The notes under the pieces: model-generated
What the model saw: only the letters and a program-made list of their open reading frames with translations
Database searches by the model: none
Told to the model about the DNA's origin: nothing
From: a virus
Virus record (IMG/VR): IMGVR_UViG_3300042465_003305
Span: 1-31,679 of that record
Length of the DNA stretch: 31,679 bases
Direction: 5' to 3' (one strand)
Made by a program: the position numbers and the translations under genes
In this document: positions 1-22,241 of the stretch, in pieces
How the letters are laid out: each line of letters opens with the position of its first letter
Position numbering within the stretch: position 1 is the stretch's first letter

Positions 1-444
1 GAGAACGGAGATCGGGACTCCGGCTTTGTCGATCTTGGTGCCTCCGCAGTCGACGCCCGTTGCAGTTCCGTTCGTCGGGATCGTCACGCCGCTTCGGAAC
101 GCATCTCGGAACTCGGCCGCGTAGTCGATCGTGATTTGGACGTATCCCTCTTCCTGCGGCAACTTGTCTCCGGGTTCCGCATTCTCATACGTGAAGTCGA
201 CTTCCCAAACGCCGAGCGTATCCGGGACGCTGCGGATGTTGTACGCCGTGCAGTAGATGACCTTCTCCTCCGGGAAGAGTTCGCCGACGTCGGGAAGCGT
301 CGAGCCGAACGTCGCGCGAACTCCCTTCGGCGTCGTGATCGTCGCCGCGTCATCCCAGATACGGAACTTGCGCGAAGCGGTGACGCGACCTCCGCTCTCG
401 GAGTAGGCTCGCGTCTCCTGCAACTCAATGTACTCGACGGCCAT
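1..444 (-). CDS. Distal tail protein, variant copy, cut by the window edge (N-terminal 148 residues)
   Basis: This is the N-terminal part of the same protein encoded completely at 30766-31569, and it runs off the left edge. Compared with that copy it differs at 22 nucleotides. Twenty are synonymous third-position changes and two are conservative (V104 to I, L145 to I). The start codon ATG (442-444) overlaps the TAA stop of the tape-measure gene by one base. The pattern fits an allele of the same gene from a related strain rather than a second gene in the genome. The function is inferred only from position just downstream of the tape measure. Confidence 0.8.
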   Translation of the reverse strand, partial: MAVEYIELQETRAYSESGGRVTASRKFRIWDDAATITTPKGVRATFGSTLPDVGELFPEEKVIYCTAYNIRSVPDTLGVWEVDFTYENAEPGDKLPQEEGYVQITIDYAAEFRDAFRSGVTIPTNGTATGVDCGGTKIDKAGVPISVL

Positions 445-554
445 TAGGCGAAACCTCCGCCGCCGGTTGATACCAGCGACTCAAGCGCTCGAACCATTCT
501 TTCATCGTTTCTCTTCTTGTCGGAGTCGGGATACGAGTCGAACTTGAACGTCCC
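1..554. repeat. Left copy of the contig-end repeat (partner 31126-31679)
   Basis: Bases 428-554 match 31553-31679 exactly over 127 bp, and bases 1-427 match 31126-31552 with 22 substitutions and no indels. The repeat spans the end of the tape-measure gene and the start of the next gene at a fixed offset of 31,125. I read it as circular closure of the genome with strain variation, not as a biological direct terminal repeat. Confidence 0.9.
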
Positions 555-1529
555 GAGCGCGGTCCCTACGCCTTGGATGCCTGCGGCCTGCGACGTGACG
601 CGCTCCTCCTCGAGACGAGTCGCCTCGTTGTATGCGTCCTCGAGCGCCTTCTTTCGATCCTCCGCGGCCTTCTCTGCGGCTTTCGCCGCGTCATCCTCGG
701 CCTTCTTCTTCTCCTTCGCGAGCGCCTCGGCTTCCTTGCGCTCCTTCTCGGCCGCGTCCGCGATCGCCTTCTCCTCTTTCGCCATGCGATCGGCGATGAC
801 CTTCGCGTCGGCATCTTCCTGCTTCGTCACCTTGTCGCGCGTCTCGTCCGCGTTCAACTGGATGCGAGCCTCGTACTCGCGTCGGAGCGCGTCCTTCTGT
901 GCTTCGGAGTTCGCATCGGCAAGTTTGTTCGAGAGTTCAAGTTCGAGCCGCTGCTCGTCGCGCAATCCGCGCTCGAAGATCGCCTTCTTCGCGTCGCCTT
1001 CTCTTTCGAGACGGCGCATCGTGATCTCAAACTCGATGTCCGCAGCCTCCTGCGCTGTCTTCGCCGCGTCCCGAGCCTCCTGCTCCTTCACTCCTGCGAC
1101 GCGGAGGATGCCTTCTCGCGCCTTTGACGCTGCCTCGATCTCCTCGGCAAGACGCTTCTCCATCTGGTCGGCAGTCTCTCCACCGAACGCATTCACAAGC
1201 GCCGAGCCGATCGAGGTACCGAGTCGATATGCCGCGCCGATGATCGGCGTGGACTTCACGAGATTCTCAAGCGCCGTTCCGAGTCCTTCTTCTCCGGCCG
1301 TCTCGGCGAAGTCCGCGACGCGATCGAGCAACTGTACGGGGTTGATGAAGCCTTCAAACTTCTTGAGGATCGACCCGCGCGAGCGCTCGAGCCATCCGCC
1401 GAACTTCGAGTCATACGTCTTCGCAGCGCTCTCGGCCGATGCTGCGGCCTTCTGCTCCGCGTCGACAAGTGACTTCTCCATCGCGGAGTAGTCGGCCTTG
1501 ACTGAGATCGTGATTTCGCCAGCGTTCAT
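444..1529 (-). CDS. Short tail tape-measure protein (probable)
   Basis: The protein has 361 residues. Its start (ATG 1527-1529) overlaps the stop of the preceding chaperone-like gene as ATGA. The N-terminal ~60 residues are followed by a hydrophobic Gly/Ala stretch (about residues 85-125, near IIGAAYRLGTSIGSALVNAFGG). After that comes a long, highly charged, Ala/Glu/Lys-rich coiled coil (about 135-320). Order after tail tube and G/GT-type chaperones is the classical place for the tape measure, which sets tail length and is ejected with DNA. It is short for the family; at the usual ~1.5 Angstrom per residue it would imply a tail near 50 nm. The call rests on synteny and coiled-coil character, not on a recognised domain. 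Confidence 0.7.
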   Translation of the reverse strand: MNAGEITISVKADYSAMEKSLVDAEQKAAASAESAAKTYDSKFGGWLERSRGSILKKFEGFINPVQLLDRVADFAETAGEEGLGTALENLVKSTPIIGAAYRLGTSIGSALVNAFGGETADQMEKRLAEEIEAASKAREGILRVAGVKEQEARDAAKTAQEAADIEFEITMRRLEREGDAKKAIFERGLRDEQRLELELSNKLADANSEAQKDALRREYEARIQLNADETRDKVTKQEDADAKVIADRMAKEEKAIADAAEKERKEAEALAKEKKKAEDDAAKAAEKAAEDRKKALEDAYNEATRLEEERVTSQAAGIQGVGTALGTFKFDSYPDSDKKRNDERMVRALESLVSTGGGGFA

Positions 1530-1744
1530 CGGATGCTCTGCTCCACATATCGACGCGCCCACGCCTGAGAATCAGACGGCCGCGCGTCGCTGGACTCGTA
1601 GCCCTTCGCCGCGAATAGGAGATGTGCATCGAACTCCGCGCACGTCAGGTCGAGCGGATTCCCGAGTCCGGGTGCGGACCTCGCGATCAAGTGCGCCTCG
1701 GCGAGCCAGTCCCGCGGCCTCGGCGGTGCCGCGGGAGCGGTCAT
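1526..1744 (-). CDS. Tail assembly chaperone, T-like part (frameshift extension)
   Basis: This 72-residue frame starts with an ATG overlapping the stop of the upstream chaperone gene (ATGA, 1741-1744). The upstream gene ends in a slippery GGGAAAA heptamer (1750-1744) and a strong hairpin follows (1736-1710). A -1 shift would enter this frame exactly at its ATG and give a fused product of about 197 residues, as in lambda gpG/gpGT. In lambda the T part contacts tail-tube subunits while the G part coats the tape measure. The frame could also be translated by re-initiation. No domain was recognised in the sequence itself. Confidence 0.7.
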   Translation of the reverse strand: MTAPAAPPRPRDWLAEAHLIARSAPGLGNPLDLTCAEFDAHLLFAAKGYESSDARPSDSQAWARRYVEQSIR

Positions 1745-1750
1745 TTTCCC
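1710..1750 (-). promoter_or_regulatory. Programmed -1 ribosomal frameshift signal
   Basis: On the minus strand the end of the upstream gene reads G-GGA-AAA-TGA, with the canonical X_XXY_YYZ heptamer GGGAAAA at 1750-1744 in the correct phase. Seven bases later a perfect 9-bp stem, TCCCGCGGC paired with GCCGCGGGA around a 9-base loop, occupies 1736-1710. Slippage puts the next codon at the ATG (1744-1742) of the downstream frame. Heptamer, spacing, stem and gene context all match tail-chaperone frameshift sites. Confidence 0.85.
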
Positions 1751-6290: not shown

Positions 6291-6704
6291 TCAGCGGAAG
6301 AAGATGTTCGTCACGCCAGCCTCGGTCGCAGAGGACACGGCATCCGATCCATCGGAAAGCAAGATGTTCACGGTCTGCCGAGCCGAAGCAGTTCCTCCGG
6401 TGAACTTGAGATACCGCTTTCGTCCCTTCAATGGGAAGCCGAGGACGAACTTCGGTTGTGTCGATGCGACCGACCCGGTACCGATCGTGTAGTCGGTTCC
6501 AGCGACGAGTCCAGTCATCGCTTCCCATGTCGAGTTGTCGTCCGAGTGCTCGACCTTGCAAGCGGTCGAGACGGTCCCGGCGACGGTCGCGTTGTACATC
6601 ACAAGCGCATATCCGAAGCCCTTCGTGTCTGCCGACGCGGTGAGCACGGTTGCCGCCGCGTTTTCGACCGCCGTCACGATCTTGATGTTCTGGAGACTGT
6701 TCAT
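6291..6704 (-). CDS. Decoration-type virion protein, paralogue 2
   Basis: A 137-residue beta-rich protein next to the capsid gene and paralogous to the gene upstream (6765-7205). Both share ATVLTASADTKGFGYALVMYNA-like N-termini, HSDDNSTW/HSDTSGS and TAGTDxT centres, and a signature LKGRKRYLKFTGG or DLRGKKRYLKVTA segment. Such GRKRYLK proteins often lie beside the major capsid gene and are presumed decoration or head-surface proteins. The start has an AAAGGA Shine-Dalgarno and a strong hairpin just upstream (6722-6750). Role is inferred from place and composition. Confidence 0.8.
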   Translation of the reverse strand: MNSLQNIKIVTAVENAAATVLTASADTKGFGYALVMYNATVAGTVSTACKVEHSDDNSTWEAMTGLVAGTDYTIGTGSVASTQPKFVLGFPLKGRKRYLKFTGGTASARQTVNILLSDGSDAVSSATEAGVTNIFFR

Positions 6705-6764: not shown

Positions 6765-7205
6765 TCAGCCCGTGACGATCTGTGCTGCGCCCATCTCGGC
6801 AGCGGACGTTCGTCCATCCGCCGGGTTGGTTAGCGTGCAGACGAGAACGCCAGTCGTAAAGACCGAGCCGCCAACAGCGGTCACCTTTAGGTAGCGCTTC
6901 TTCCCTCGGAGATCGACGTTGTAGATGATCTTTGCGTTGTTCGTCAGAGTCGCGGCCGAACTTGGTGTCCAGTCGGTTCCGGCGGTGAATCCAGAAATCG
7001 CCGCGTGTCCAGAGCCACTCGTATCGCTGTGCTGGAGCGCGTGATTTGTAAGGACGGTGCCAAGGCTGTTCGTCGTGGGAGAGGTTCCCTCGAAGAGAGA
7101 GATCGACGCATAGGAGAAGCCAGCCGTGTCGAACTCGGCAGTCATCAGCGCCGTGATGGCCGTAACGCCGACGGTCGCGCAGACTTGCTTGTAGTTTGCT
7201 CGCAT
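6765..7205 (-). CDS. Decoration-type virion protein, paralogue 1
   Basis: A 146-residue beta-rich, Thr/Ala/Ser-rich protein directly after the major capsid gene. It is similar along its length to the 137-residue product downstream, including the GKKRYLKVT motif (about residues 101-109). The start ATG has an AAGGAGG Shine-Dalgarno lying in the loop of a small hairpin (GATCC/GGATC, 7211-7226) that also covers the capsid stop codon. Presumed capsid-surface protein; the pair probably arose by tandem duplication. Confidence 0.8.
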   Translation of the reverse strand: MRANYKQVCATVGVTAITALMTAEFDTAGFSYASISLFEGTSPTTNSLGTVLTNHALQHSDTSGSGHAAISGFTAGTDWTPSSAATLTNNAKIIYNVDLRGKKRYLKVTAVGGSVFTTGVLVCTLTNPADGRTSAAEMGAAQIVTG

Positions 7206-8666: not shown

Positions 8667-9338
8667 TCAGAGCCAGATGCGGCCTCGAGCGCGAGCCAAC
8701 TCGCGATCGACGGCCTCGGATACCTTGATCGACCGAGCGGCCGACGTGGATGAGGCCGCGGGAATGCTCACCGAGACGACGGTGCGCTTCGGAGCCTCGA
8801 CTCCGAACCACTTCCGAGCCGCGGCCGGCGAGCAGATGCCCTTCTTGACGGCCGTGATGAGCGCCTCGGGATTCGCCTGCAATGGAGCGAGCGACACCTC
8901 GAGCAACTTCCAGCGCGAGAAGATCGTCTGCACCTCGTCGCCGTACTTTTTCTTGTCGACGTCGGTCGCGCGACGGACACCGCCAGCCTCGGGAACGTAT
9001 CCAACCGAGACGGCGCGGACGATGCCCTGCCCGACGAGACTCGCCGCAACCTCGGGGAAGAACTCCCCGGAGTATCCGTCCGGCCGCTTCGCGAAGACGA
9101 ACTCGCCAACTATGTCACGCTCTCGACGCTTGAGGTCGACGGTCGTGCCGACCGGAGTCGCGTAGTCGTGATTCCAGAAGAGCGTGGGATTCTGCTCGAA
9201 CTCCTTCGAGTTCATGCCTGCCGGGATGAGGACTTCGCCGTCGCGGTCGAGCGTCTCGGCGGTGATGACCGCGGTGAATCCCTTCGCGGTTCCCGACATC
9301 TCGGCGATGAGCGCCTTGCGCTTCACTTCGACTTTCAT
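8667..9338 (-). CDS. Prohead (HK97-type, S78 family) maturation protease
   Basis: A 223-residue protein with the family signatures: TLDRDGEVLIPAGM, then LFWNHDYATPVG carrying the catalytic His57, then VRAVSVGYVPE with the catalytic Ser111, and the LLEVSLAPLQANPEA segment. It matures the capsid by removing the scaffolding domain. Its start overlaps the portal-fusion stop by one base (TGATG), and the capsid gene follows 86 bases later. Confidence 0.93.
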   Translation of the reverse strand: MKVEVKRKALIAEMSGTAKGFTAVITAETLDRDGEVLIPAGMNSKEFEQNPTLFWNHDYATPVGTTVDLKRRERDIVGEFVFAKRPDGYSGEFFPEVAASLVGQGIVRAVSVGYVPEAGGVRRATDVDKKKYGDEVQTIFSRWKLLEVSLAPLQANPEALITAVKKGICSPAAARKWFGVEAPKRTVVSVSIPAASSTSAARSIKVSEAVDRELARARGRIWL

Positions 9339-13606: not shown

Positions 13607-13944
13607 GCGGTGTCCGAGAGACGCGGTTTCGGAAGATCGAACGGCTCGATCGTGACCACCTCTTCGCGCCTCGTCTCGTCGATCTTGTCACGCTGGCCGA
13701 GGTACTGCTTGCCGAGCCAGATGAGCATCGGAACGGATCCTTCCTTCGCCTTCTCGTATTGCCACCGGCGAAGCGACATCCGCATCTCGTCGTGTCCCTT
13801 GTCGATCTCGGCGCGAGCGCGACGTTTGATCGTCATCTCGGAAACTCCGACGATCTTCGCAATCTCGGGAATCGTGCATCCGATTCGCGCGAGGGATTGC
13901 ACGAGAGAGAGATTGAACTCGACGCGAGGACGGCCCCTACTCAC
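13603..13944 (-). CDS. Terminase small subunit-like DNA-binding protein
   Basis: A 113-residue protein with an N-terminal helix-turn-helix (ARIGCTIPEIAKIVGVSEMTIKRRARAEIDKG, residues ~19-50), followed by a segment MLIWLGKQYLGQRDK that is typical of phage small terminases and their relatives. It lies immediately upstream of the large subunit and is coupled to it by ATGA. It would recognise packaging sites in phage DNA. It overlaps the methyltransferase end by 8 bp. Confidence 0.82.
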   Translation of the reverse strand: MSRGRPRVEFNLSLVQSLARIGCTIPEIAKIVGVSEMTIKRRARAEIDKGHDEMRMSLRRWQYEKAKEGSVPMLIWLGKQYLGQRDKIDETRREEVVTIEPFDLPKPRLSDTA

Positions 13945-15445
13945 GGACGGCCTTCTTTCCTGTGAGGTTCTCCCAACGTTTGACGATCACGTCGCAGTAT
14001 GTGGGACTGATCTCCATCCCGTAGCACTTGCGGCCAAGTTGCTCGGCGGCGATCAGCGTCGTTCCTGAACCGAGGAACGGATCTGCGATCAGATCGTCCG
14101 GTCTTGAATGCGCGGAGATGAGCCGCGAGATCATCTCAACTGGCTTCGGAGTCGGATGCCCGTGTCGATCTTCACCCTTCGGCGCTGTCATATGCCAGAC
14201 ATCGGTGAAGTTTGCACCTTGCTGCGCGTCGAACTCTCTCCGCTGCGCGTCGAACTCTCTCCGCTGCGCGTCGAACTCTTTCCGCTGCGCGTCGAACTCT
14301 TTCCGCTGCGCGTCCCATTCTCCGATCTCAACTCCACGAGAACGGAACAGCGGACTCATCTTCTCCCATGCTTCTCGAGTAGGCAGCGCCCATTGGGACT
14401 TCGTGAAGTAGTGTCCGGCCATCCCATTTTTCCCAAGAACCGCGTCGATTTCCTTCATCGAAAGTCCGGCTTGCTTCTGCCATCCTGCCAGCCTTTCGAT
14501 GATGTTCGCATATGCCGATCGCGATGCGATATGCGCGGTCTTTGCATTGAACGATGCAAGCAGAGCATCCGGCGAATGCTGCTTCTCGCAGATGAGAAGG
14601 CGTTCGCTACGCGGCCTCCACCTACGCATCTCTTCGACTGACTGCTTCGATCCGAGGTCGGTTCCCTTCCACCAGACGAGATGATTGAAGACCGCAAAGT
14701 GCTCGCGAAGCAATCCCTCGATATGCCAAGCGTAATCAGGAGCGCACCACCATGCAGCGGTGCCACGGTCGAGGATAGTTGGTGCCCATATCCTGAAGAC
14801 GTTCCTGAGAAAGTCTAGGAAGCCCTCGTATCCATCGAAGTCATTATCCCATTCAGCGTCCACCTTCTGAAAATATGGAGGATCTGCCATGATGAAAGAC
14901 GCTTTTTCCCCATCAAGAATCCGTTCGACGTCCTCGGCCTTCGTCGAGTCGCCGCAGAGAAGCCGATGATTTCCGAGGAGCCAGAGATCGCCTAGTTTCG
15001 TGATCGGCTCCGCTGGCGTCTCTGGAACCTCGTCCTCATCGACTTCAGTCGGAGCCGTGAGCGCCTCGATCTCCTTCGCATCAAATCCGGTCGCCGACGC
15101 GAGTTCTTCGTCCTCGATCTGCAACGCGGCGAGAGTCTGCGCGAGTGCGTCGTCATCCCACTCGGCGAGTTCGGCGCTTCGGTTGTCCGCGATGGCGTAG
15201 GCCGTCGCTTCGCTCCCCGTGAGCGCCGAGCGCACGACGGCGATCTCTTTCCATCCGAGCGCCTTCGCTGCGGCGAGCGTCCCGTTCCCAGCGCGGACGA
15301 CACCGTTCGCGTCGACGACGATCGGCTTCTGTTGGCCGAAGCGGTTGAGGCTCGCCTTGATCGCCGCGAGGTTCTTCTCATCGTGCTTGCGGACGTTCGC
15401 CGGATCGAACGTGAGTGAGTCGATCTTGACAGTCTCGACGTTCAT
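13937..15445 (-). CDS. ParB-domain DNA methyltransferase (N6-adenine/N4-cytosine, beta-type motif order)
   Basis: A 502-residue fusion. Residues 1-~95 are a ParB/Srx-like domain (DPANVRKHDEKNLAAIKASLNRFGQQKPIVVD, then RAGNGTLAAAKALGW). Residues ~150-500 form a DNA methyltransferase with LLCGDST, the catalytic ADPPY (187-191), and the SAM motif DPFLGSGTT (455-463) placed after it. That order defines the beta class. Between them, residues 376-409 hold five tandem heptads of the type EFDAQRK, encoded by 21-bp repeats. ParB-methyltransferase fusions are common in phages and likely protect DNA from host restriction or mark it. No partner nuclease is seen. It overlaps the FkbM-type gene by ATGA. 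Confidence 0.92.
   Translation of the reverse strand: MNVETVKIDSLTFDPANVRKHDEKNLAAIKASLNRFGQQKPIVVDANGVVRAGNGTLAAAKALGWKEIAVVRSALTGSEATAYAIADNRSAELAEWDDDALAQTLAALQIEDEELASATGFDAKEIEALTAPTEVDEDEVPETPAEPITKLGDLWLLGNHRLLCGDSTKAEDVERILDGEKASFIMADPPYFQKVDAEWDNDFDGYEGFLDFLRNVFRIWAPTILDRGTAAWWCAPDYAWHIEGLLREHFAVFNHLVWWKGTDLGSKQSVEEMRRWRPRSERLLICEKQHSPDALLASFNAKTAHIASRSAYANIIERLAGWQKQAGLSMKEIDAVLGKNGMAGHYFTKSQWALPTREAWEKMSPLFRSRGVEIGEWDAQRKEFDAQRKEFDAQRREFDAQRREFDAQQGANFTDVWHMTAPKGEDRHGHPTPKPVEMISRLISAHSRPDDLIADPFLGSGTTLIAAEQLGRKCYGMEISPTYCDVIVKRWENLTGKKAVRE
14222..14320 (-). repeat. Five 21-bp tandem repeats inside the methyltransferase gene
   Basis: Nearly identical 21-bp units encode E(W/F)DAQR(K/R) heptads in frame. 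The middle units differ by single changes (K to R codons), and the edge units are more diverged (EWDAQRK and EFDAQQG). The array lies between the catalytic motif and the SAM motif of the enzyme, where the target-recognition region is expected in this class. A multiple of three keeps the frame, so copy number can change without breaking the enzyme. Confidence 0.9.
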
Positions 15446-19146: not shown

Positions 19147-19306
19147 CGAGGAGCCGGACGAGAGATCCCGTTCCCTCGCGCCATGATCTCCATGCGTGGA
19201 CTTCGCGCCGGAGGACGTTTGCGTCGCGCGTTGCCGCTGCGATCTGCCTTCGGAGTTCGGCGTTGCGGATGATGAGTCCTTCGCGGTCTTCATGCGTCTT
19301 GCTCAT
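19091..19306 (-). CDS. Small coiled-coil protein between the methyltransferase and RusA
   Basis: A 71-residue, charged helical protein (EDREGLIIRNAELRRQIAAATRDANVLRREVHAW). Its codon choice (CTC, ATC, GTC, CGC, GAC) matches that of the confident genes. The start overlaps the end of the cytosine methyltransferase by 17 bp, with AGGGA just upstream of ATG. Its end overlaps RusA by 56 bp. No family was recognised. Confidence 0.65.
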   Translation of the reverse strand: MSKTHEDREGLIIRNAELRRQIAAATRDANVLRREVHAWRSWREGTGSLVRLLDARRDTDRSTAFRCMGDD

Positions 19307-20600
19307 GCTTCCCTGTATCGGTTCGTTCGATTCGCTCCCCGATCCACGCCATGCAGTTGACGGCCATGCTATTACCGAGCGCCTTGTACCTAGGCCCGTC
19401 CGGACACTCGTCGGCAGGCTTCTTCCGCCACGGGATGAGGGTCCAGTCGTCGGGGAATCCCTGAAGGCGTTCGCACTCCCGGGGCGTGAGGCGGCGCACG
19501 GTCATGGCTTGCGCCACCGCCGGCGGCGAAGGAATGCCAAGGCCGCTACCGACCTTGACGGGGGGCGAAACTTCGGGCTGCTGGTTCACGCCGTGCGTGC
19601 CGCCCGTGCTGTAGAAGCCGTGCGCCTGCATCACGGTCGGTCCGCTGGCGTTGACGCTCGCCCCCGGCGTTCCCATCGTCGCCGCGACGTCGCCCGTGAT
19701 CGCGCCGATGTAGAGATCAAGCGCAACGGCTTGCGGGATGTACGCCCCGTGACCATCTAGTTCCGTGTGCGAACGCAGGCCACGGTTGCCGAGGGTTGAT
19801 GCGACGGGCTGCGTCACACATTCCTCGTGGTTGTTGCGGCTGTTTGCGAATCGCGCTGCGATAGTCGAAGACACCTCACCGATCATCGTGAAGCCATCCG
19901 CTCTGCTGTAGTCATTGCTCGTTGTTTCCAAGCACGACGCTACTTCGTGGCTTGTGACGCTGCGGCCTGCTCCAACGCCTGCTTCAGCATCGGCGGGAGC
20001 GCCTTGCCTCGGCGCTCGGCGCGGCGCAGAATCCCGCTGCACGCTTTCGCGCTCAAAGAGAACCGCGGCGGCAGCGGCCCCGTCTCCAAGACATCCGACA
20101 ACGAACACACGTCGCCGGCTTTGCGGCACGGCACGGGGATGCCGTTGTGTTCTGACCCATTGAGCGTCCAACACCCGGTAGGCCCACCCATACCCCAGTT
20201 CCCCCAACGCCCCGAGGAAGGCACCAAGATCCCGTCCGCTCCCCGATGACAGGACGCCGGGGACGTTCTCCCAGACAAGCCATCTAGGCCGTAAACGACA
20301 AGCGATCTCAAGATAGGTGAGCATGAGTCCTCCGCGTGGGTCGGACAATCCTTGCCGGAGTCCTGCGACGGAGAAAGATTGACATGGCGTTCCTCCAACC
20401 AGAAGGTCAACCGATCCGGGTTTGATGGGCCAAGTTGCATACTTCGTCATGTCTCCGTAGTTAGGAACGTTAGGAAATCTATGCGCGAGTACCGCGCTCG
20501 GGAACGCTTCTATCTCGCTGAACGCGACAGGTTCCCAGCCGAGATGATGCCAAGCCACACTCGCGGCCTCAATGCCAGAGCAGACGCTCATGTATTTCAT
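19290..20600 (-). CDS. DNA (cytosine-5) methyltransferase
   Basis: A 436-residue enzyme with all main C5-methyltransferase motifs: motif I SVCSGIEAASVAW (5-17), motif IV GGTPCQSFSVAG with catalytic Cys73, motif VI ENV (111-113), motif VIII QSRRRVFVVG (160-169), and motif X GNSMAVN (409-415). The target-recognition region between VIII and IX (about 175-375) is long. No cognate restriction endonuclease is nearby, as is usual for phage enzymes that protect against host restriction. The start overlaps the stop of the preceding gene as ATGA. Confidence 0.95.
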   Translation of the reverse strand: MKYMSVCSGIEAASVAWHHLGWEPVAFSEIEAFPSAVLAHRFPNVPNYGDMTKYATWPIKPGSVDLLVGGTPCQSFSVAGLRQGLSDPRGGLMLTYLEIACRLRPRWLVWENVPGVLSSGSGRDLGAFLGALGELGYGWAYRVLDAQWVRTQRHPRAVPQSRRRVFVVGCLGDGAAAAAVLFERESVQRDSAPRRAPRQGAPADAEAGVGAGRSVTSHEVASCLETTSNDYSRADGFTMIGEVSSTIAARFANSRNNHEECVTQPVASTLGNRGLRSHTELDGHGAYIPQAVALDLYIGAITGDVAATMGTPGASVNASGPTVMQAHGFYSTGGTHGVNQQPEVSPPVKVGSGLGIPSPPAVAQAMTVRRLTPRECERLQGFPDDWTLIPWRKKPADECPDGPRYKALGNSMAVNCMAWIGERIERTDTGKHEQDA

Positions 20601-21999: not shown

Positions 22000-22241
22000 G
22001 TTGCCTCCTCTGCCTCGTCTCCCGAGCGGCCGGGGAGGTTTCCCTCCCCAGCCAGCCCACCGGGAGACTGCGCGTCGTGCGCTTTCGGCGCGAGCATCGT
22101 AGCACGGTCGAGGGTGCGGCGAAGCCATCGCAGCGCGTCGAGTTCGTCGTCCGTCTCGGCGTGAGTCCGAGAGAGGATCTCCCCGAGTCCTGCGCGGACG
22201 TGCTTTGAGAGATACGGCCTTCGGGTGTCGATCGAGTTCAT
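21996..22241 (-). CDS. Small early protein
   Basis: An 81-residue protein with a helical first half (AGLGEILSRTHAETDDELDALRWLRRTLDRATML) and a Gly/Glu-rich, probably disordered tail (SPGGLAGEGNLPGRSGDEAEEAT). The tail is encoded over a GGGGAGG/CCTCCCC hairpin with a GAAA loop on the minus strand (22052-22069). It has ATGA overlaps on both sides. The function is unknown. Confidence 0.72.
   Translation of the reverse strand: MNSIDTRRPYLSKHVRAGLGEILSRTHAETDDELDALRWLRRTLDRATMLAPKAHDAQSPGGLAGEGNLPGRSGDEAEEAT
22052..22069 (-). other. GAAA-loop hairpin inside the 81-residue gene, upstream of the CsrA-like gene
   Basis: GGGGAGG and CCTCCCC pair around a four-base loop that reads GAAA in the minus-strand transcript. 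No T-run follows. It lies about 50 bases before the start of the CsrA-like gene and within coding sequence. Confidence 0.55.

Follow-up and report, generated by a model that had tools for sequence, protein, structure and literature searches.

Conserved slip-site and hairpin signals point to lambda-type -1 frameshifting at a junction between two putative viral tail assembly chaperone frames

In phage lambda, -1 frameshifting is described as producing gpG and gpGT at a ratio of 30:1, with the tape measure protein bound by G and the tail tube protein bound by T (PMC5009743). The same source presents this scheme as widespread among long-tailed phages and gives G_GGA_AAC and G_GGA_AAG as slip sites used at g-t junctions elsewhere (PMC5009743). 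For 3679 SEA-PHAGES genomes, another report counts 2397 joined tail assembly chaperone genes (PMC10885494). Here, we analyzed a junction of this type in a virus record of 31,679 bases (the window, meaning this whole stretch of DNA). Its G and T frames resemble lambda gpG/gpGT, as described there, in the use of the -1 frame, in a site near the 3' end of G, in an adjoining tape-measure-like ORF, and in a predicted pair of short and long chaperones with a common N-terminal part (PMC5009743). The slip site of lambda is also of the G GGA AAN type found in this family. The lambda heptamer is GGGAAAG, whereas most relatives of the window have GGGAAAC, and a downstream hairpin is found in most of them. 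T of the window is presumably shorter than lambda T, and in this family it carries a motif of its own, RDWLAEAHLIAR/GLGNPLDL. A further likeness is to the haloarchaeal siphoviruses HCTV-1, -2, and -5, for which G_GGA_AAC and G_GGA_AAG are reported in two of the three (PMC5009743); these viruses have other hosts, and the likeness lies in the slip sites.

All features of the junction are on the minus strand of the window. The G ORF (positions 1741 to 2118) has 125 codons, would encode the shorter chaperone product, and ends with ...GCT CCT GCG GGA AAA TGA. The slippery heptamer G GGA AAA (1744 to 1750) is in the X XXY YYZ phase. It is abutted by the 0-frame stop codon TGA (1741 to 1743), which gives the TG of an ATG in the -1 frame. 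The spacer TGACCGC (1737 to 1743), 7 nt with the stop codon included, is followed by a putative stimulatory hairpin (1710 to 1736) of 9 perfect pairs and a 9-nt loop, composed of the 5' arm TCCCGCGGC (1736-1728), the loop ACCGCCGAG (1727-1719), and the 3' arm GCCGCGGGA (1718-1710); excess folding occurs at the same distance in relatives (see below). The T frame (1526 to 1744) opens at the ATG at 1744 and has 72 codons plus a stop codon at 1528-1526. The predicted products are thus G, of 125 residues, and a GT fusion of 197 residues with T as its C-terminal extension. The heptamer, its phase, the 7-nt spacer, the 9-bp stem, and the two product lengths had been given by a first-pass annotation, and every number was correct when we read the sequence again.

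The strength of this signal was evaluated within the window itself. Its minus strand contains 16 heptamers of the form XXXAAAN or XXXTTTN, and GGGAAAN was seen 15 times, compared with about 8.5 expected from base composition. We searched for X3Y3Z sites with a 0 frame open for at least 60 codons, a stop at most 60 nt away, and a -1 frame of at least 40 codons. Four sites in the window passed this filter, and only the heptamer at the G/T junction had an immediate stop. Further X3Y3Z heptamers with open -1 frames, at 22044 (GGGAAAC) and 3938 (TTTTTTC) on the minus strand, are probably due to chance. The fold energy of the window junction was unexceptional, with a z of -0.96 over 66 nt and 35 of 200 shuffles equally stable; against a synonymous-codon null, P was 0.067 over 42 nt and 0.242 over 55 nt. 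A perfect 9-bp stem at the distance seen in the window appeared in none of 300 synonymous-codon recodings. Judged alone, the sequence of the window is suggestive only. What places this putative site far beyond chance is the comparison with relatives rather than the single sequence.

Relatives were collected from IMG/VR. A search with G gave 10 loci and one with T gave 59; a search with a T alignment gave the best 80 of 119 relatives, and three further queries gave the best 80 of 83, 34, and 9 loci, with many contigs repeated between searches. After repeats were removed by contig name, the junction set comprised 113 sequences, i.e., the window and 112 contigs (59 from the T query, L010, 32 new ones from the T alignment, L146, and 19 from the further queries). 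L009, which stops short of the junction, L219, which starts inside T, and L268, which has only a partial G, were excluded, and relatives ranked past the best 80 of 119 or of 83 also lie outside this set. For statistics, we used 24 cluster representatives whose T proteins are at most about 80% identical. The relatives of G extend down to 26% identity with that of the window. Among 84,980 bacterial and archaeal genomes, a single relative was found, L146 (RFQY01000039.1), on a contig of a Rhodobacteraceae metagenome-assembled genome; it may be a lead to the host, or perhaps a binned phage contig. Among cultured phages, a collection of 50,697 records gave no DNA match to the window, no match to T or to the head-tail connector, and a best E value of 0.7 for G. 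A literature search gave no paper recognizable as describing this G/T family, which has no name to search by.

The heptamer was conserved throughout most of this set. An in-phase GGGAAAN was present at 105 of the 113 junctions, with C as the last base in 79, A in 18, T in 5, and G in 3. The 0-frame stop followed with no gap in 60 of them, after 3 nt in 41, after 15 nt in 1, and after 54 nt in 3. The last contigs added, from the further queries, were an out-of-sample set and gave the same result, as all 19 junction-spanning contigs had an in-phase GGGAAAN, the 20th contig (L219) beginning inside T. Codon usage at the site was also biased. The slip-site Gly codon was GGA in 23 of the 24 cluster representatives, whereas GGA accounted for 78 of the 273 Gly codons in the rest of the G and T frames. 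The base preceding the slip-site Gly codon was G in all 24. Where a Lys codon occupied the slip site, it was AAA in 4 of 7 cases, versus 7 of 114 elsewhere. These cluster counts are not independent trials, because the clusters share ancestry.

The eight junctions without GGGAAAN all belong to one clade, L044 to L051, whose eight contigs read G GCA AAC CCT CTG TAG instead of G GGA AAN, with the 0-frame stop 6 nt away. A hairpin with 8 perfect pairs lies 9 nt after GGCAAAC, and one equally long was found in 2.3% of 300 recodings. One codon further on, these contigs contain A AAC CCT, an X XXY YYZ heptamer that lies in the correct phase for a -1 slip. This sequence was outside the pattern of our first heptamer search, which took only AAA or TTT as YYY. 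No ATG, GTG, or TTG was found in the T frame near the junction of these contigs; therefore, some recoding would still be needed if T is made. Frameshifting on a nonstandard site, either at A AAC CCT or by A-site-led slippage on G GCA AAC, is a tentative explanation that we rate at somewhat under even chances. The first-pass annotation had named relatives that keep both frames and lose the heptamer as evidence against frameshifting, and this clade, with its hairpin and its A AAC CCT, was the only such case.

A downstream structure is usual at -1 frameshift sites, and it is not known to be obligatory at those of the lambda type. We examined folding after the heptamer in the 24 representatives, using recodings that preserve the T protein as the null. 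In the 42-nt window after the heptamer, the mean z was -1.82 (Stouffer, -8.9); over 55 nt, it was -1.90 (Stouffer, -9.3), with 18 of the 24 below -1 and 14 below -1.64. The effect was position specific. For 55-nt windows starting at nt 1, 4, and 7 after the heptamer, the Stouffer values were -9.3, -10.5, and -10.8, the last being the strongest, and when the start was moved further past nt 7 by 3, 6, and 12 nt, they fell to -4.7, -1.2, and +0.1. This sharp profile indicates that the 5' arm starts about 7 to 10 nt behind the slip site. Control windows at other positions ranged from -1.9 to +2.8 in T and from -3.0 to +0.3 in G, where some were mildly negative (lowest Stouffer, -2.98). Eight junctions added later gave a mean z of -1.21 (Stouffer, -3.4), and one of them, L193, is close to L133. 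Downstream RNA structure is therefore a property of the set, while the window alone has a perfect 9-bp stem without exceptional energy. Loss of the stem in relatives had also been named beforehand as evidence against the site. The excess folding across the set goes against such a loss, although little or no excess was detected in four of the 24 representatives (L064, L098, L108, and L140) and in two of the later junctions (L209 and L223).

The hairpin is built in two ways. Its 3' arm lies within the PRD codons in the window, L103, L123, and L133, and within the later AEAH codons in others, e.g., L018, L038, L042, L101, and L141. When the 9-bp stem was held fixed over 12 rows, 86.1% of the cells were paired; covariation was slight, with one pair changed on both sides and a score matched by 44 of 500 shuffles. 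Two of these rows, L016 and L010, form different stems. The weak covariation is due in part to the use of different stems by different clades, and it is not our main evidence. An upstream Shine-Dalgarno-like stimulator, of which dnaX is an example, was also considered and rejected. Raw anti-Shine-Dalgarno pairing increased near the slip site, yet it did not exceed that of synonymous recodings (mean z, +0.37 in 23 of the 24 clusters, L064 having been dropped because its upstream sequence was too short).

Could T instead be a separate gene, reached by termination and re-initiation at the ATGA overlap, with the heptamer incidental? The window and its closest relatives do have an ATG over the stop codon. 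A 0-frame TGA, however, necessarily yields NTG in the -1 frame, and of the 83 junctions ending in TGA, 57 have C as the base N, 15 have A, and 11 have G; the other 30 end in TAG or TAA and have no NTG there. CTG is thus the codon most often found over the stop, with ATG at only 15 of the 113 junctions and GTG at 11, and the heptamer is conserved over a much broader range of relatives than the start codon is. At 51 of the 113, the -1 frame had no ATG, GTG, or TTG within 10 codons on either side of the slip; therefore, the downstream frame of these must be reached by frameshifting. Nor were upstream Shine-Dalgarno sequences enriched beyond the synonymous expectation (mean z, +0.37; 23 clusters). 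We regard re-initiation alone as very unlikely. The first-pass annotation had suggested that re-initiation at the ATGA overlap may operate next to frameshifting, a combination that it called unusual. As a mechanism shared by the family, re-initiation found no support, given an NTG that arises automatically, an ATG in so few junctions, and so many without a start.

A mixed mode, in which frameshifting prevails and a minority of lineages with ATG make some free T by re-initiation, agrees with the ATGA or GTGA overlap at 26 of the 113 junctions. Within the L133 clade, the last base of the heptamer, Z, is C in L133, L136, and L138 and A in L193, changing CTG to ATG; the ATG thus appears and disappears with Z, and such gain and loss within clades is what would be expected of a neutral start codon. 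The mixed mode is unlikely in our view, though the ATG of the window may itself support a low level of initiation. That ATG is best seen as a by-product of a Z that is A followed by TGA. Lastly, a heptamer might fall by accident at the GC-rich end of one of two ordinary overlapping genes. GGGAAAN is fairly common on the minus strand of the window and the fold of the single sequence is ordinary, as described above, but in-phase conservation over divergent relatives and position-specific folding refute this explanation, and we give it almost no credence.

Programmed -1 ribosomal frameshifting of the lambda G/GT kind is thus our preferred reading of this junction, and the sequence comparisons make it highly probable. 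It is also what the first-pass annotation had proposed, and the persistence of the heptamer, its phase, the near stop, and the hairpin in very divergent relatives lends that proposal strong support. From the signal and its conservation, which were observed directly, we infer slippage, its efficiency, and the chaperone role. Most ribosomes would terminate at the TGA that ends G and release the chaperone of 125 residues. A minority would pause at the hairpin, where the P- and A-site tRNAs would slip from G GGA AAA to GGG AAA, and would then read the -1 frame through ...APAGK-MTAPAAPP... to give the GT fusion of 197 residues. If the two parts work as in lambda, G would serve to coat the tape measure protein, and T would bring in the major tail protein. 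Mechanisms of this kind are well known, and the novelty lies in the G/T family and in how large its conserved set is.

The proteins themselves gave less direct clues. Neither G nor T of the window had a reliable match in Pfam, NCBIfam, or PHROGs. Window G, unlike lambda G, thus lacks a significant match to a chaperone family in these libraries, including PHROG 344 ("tail assembly chaperone"), which was weakly matched by 6 of 24 relatives of G (best E value, 0.0012). An AlphaFold model of G (mean pLDDT, 88.6) consists of two strands followed by helices. It had no match in the PDB (best E value, 1.0). Against viral structures, Foldseek returned one match below 1e-3, to an uncharacterized phage protein; the best matches listed were uncharacterized phage proteins together with several proteins annotated as tail assembly chaperones, the latter at E values of 0.04 or worse. 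T is protein coding, with 14 invariant positions among 16 diverse sequences, and has a strongly conserved core motif, RDWLAEAHLIAR-APGLGNPLDLTCAEF, that is absent from the family libraries searched. A weak profile match of T to HNH endonucleases, in 5 of the 16 (best E value, 0.01), was rejected as due to chance. Place, size, and weak matches make a tail chaperone role of G and GT likely, with slightly less confidence than we have in the frameshift.

The genes around the junction follow the order connector genes, probable tail protein, G, T, and a long ORF. The long ORF (444 to 1529, minus strand; 361 residues) has an ATGA overlap with the stop codon of T. It matched no family in the Pfam, NCBIfam, and PHROG searches and probably encodes the tape measure protein, as judged by position only, i.e., its place and length. 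The 24 cluster representatives likewise have an ORF in a similar place after T, which in one of them runs off the contig. Its length, 361 codons in the window, is 323 to 466 in most representatives and 693 in L141. A tape-measure-like ORF this short would mean a short tail if the usual rule relating its length to that of the tail holds. Upstream of G, on the same strand, are an 86-codon ORF (2123-2383), which had only a weak match to phrog_38698 (E value, 0.18), and the probable major tail protein (2380 to 2844), named from its position and a weak match to phrog_290 (tail; E value, 0.011). The upstream genes have matches in the head-tail connector, neck, and terminator families, and further up lie genes with matches to the major head, protease, portal, and terminase proteins. 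Two adjacent minus-strand ORFs, 6291-6704 and 6765-7205, both match phrog_5707, possibly as a result of duplication. A frameshift between the ORFs of the head protease and the major head protein, which overlap on paper at 8667-8811, was considered and rejected; the overlap vanishes if the start of the capsid gene is taken as an ATG that lies past the stop codon of the protease. Elsewhere on the minus strand are two DNA methyltransferase-like genes, one (13937-15445) with a ParB-like N-terminal part and the other (19290-20600) with an additional match to a profile named DNA primase.

These results suggest that chaperone frameshifting of the lambda type extends over a broad group of phages that had no relative in the cultured-phage collection searched and whose G and T proteins are not reliably recognized by current family libraries. 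Simple gene callers would miss the GT fusion, above all where T has no start codon, and the T motif together with the slip signal provides a practical means to annotate the fused product. The hairpin differs in layout and sequence from clade to clade but has kept its spacing from the slip site, which makes the set useful for testing what a stimulator needs. If the clade of L044 to L051 does frameshift on its nonstandard site, it would be a natural experiment on the extent to which a -1 slip site can diverge.
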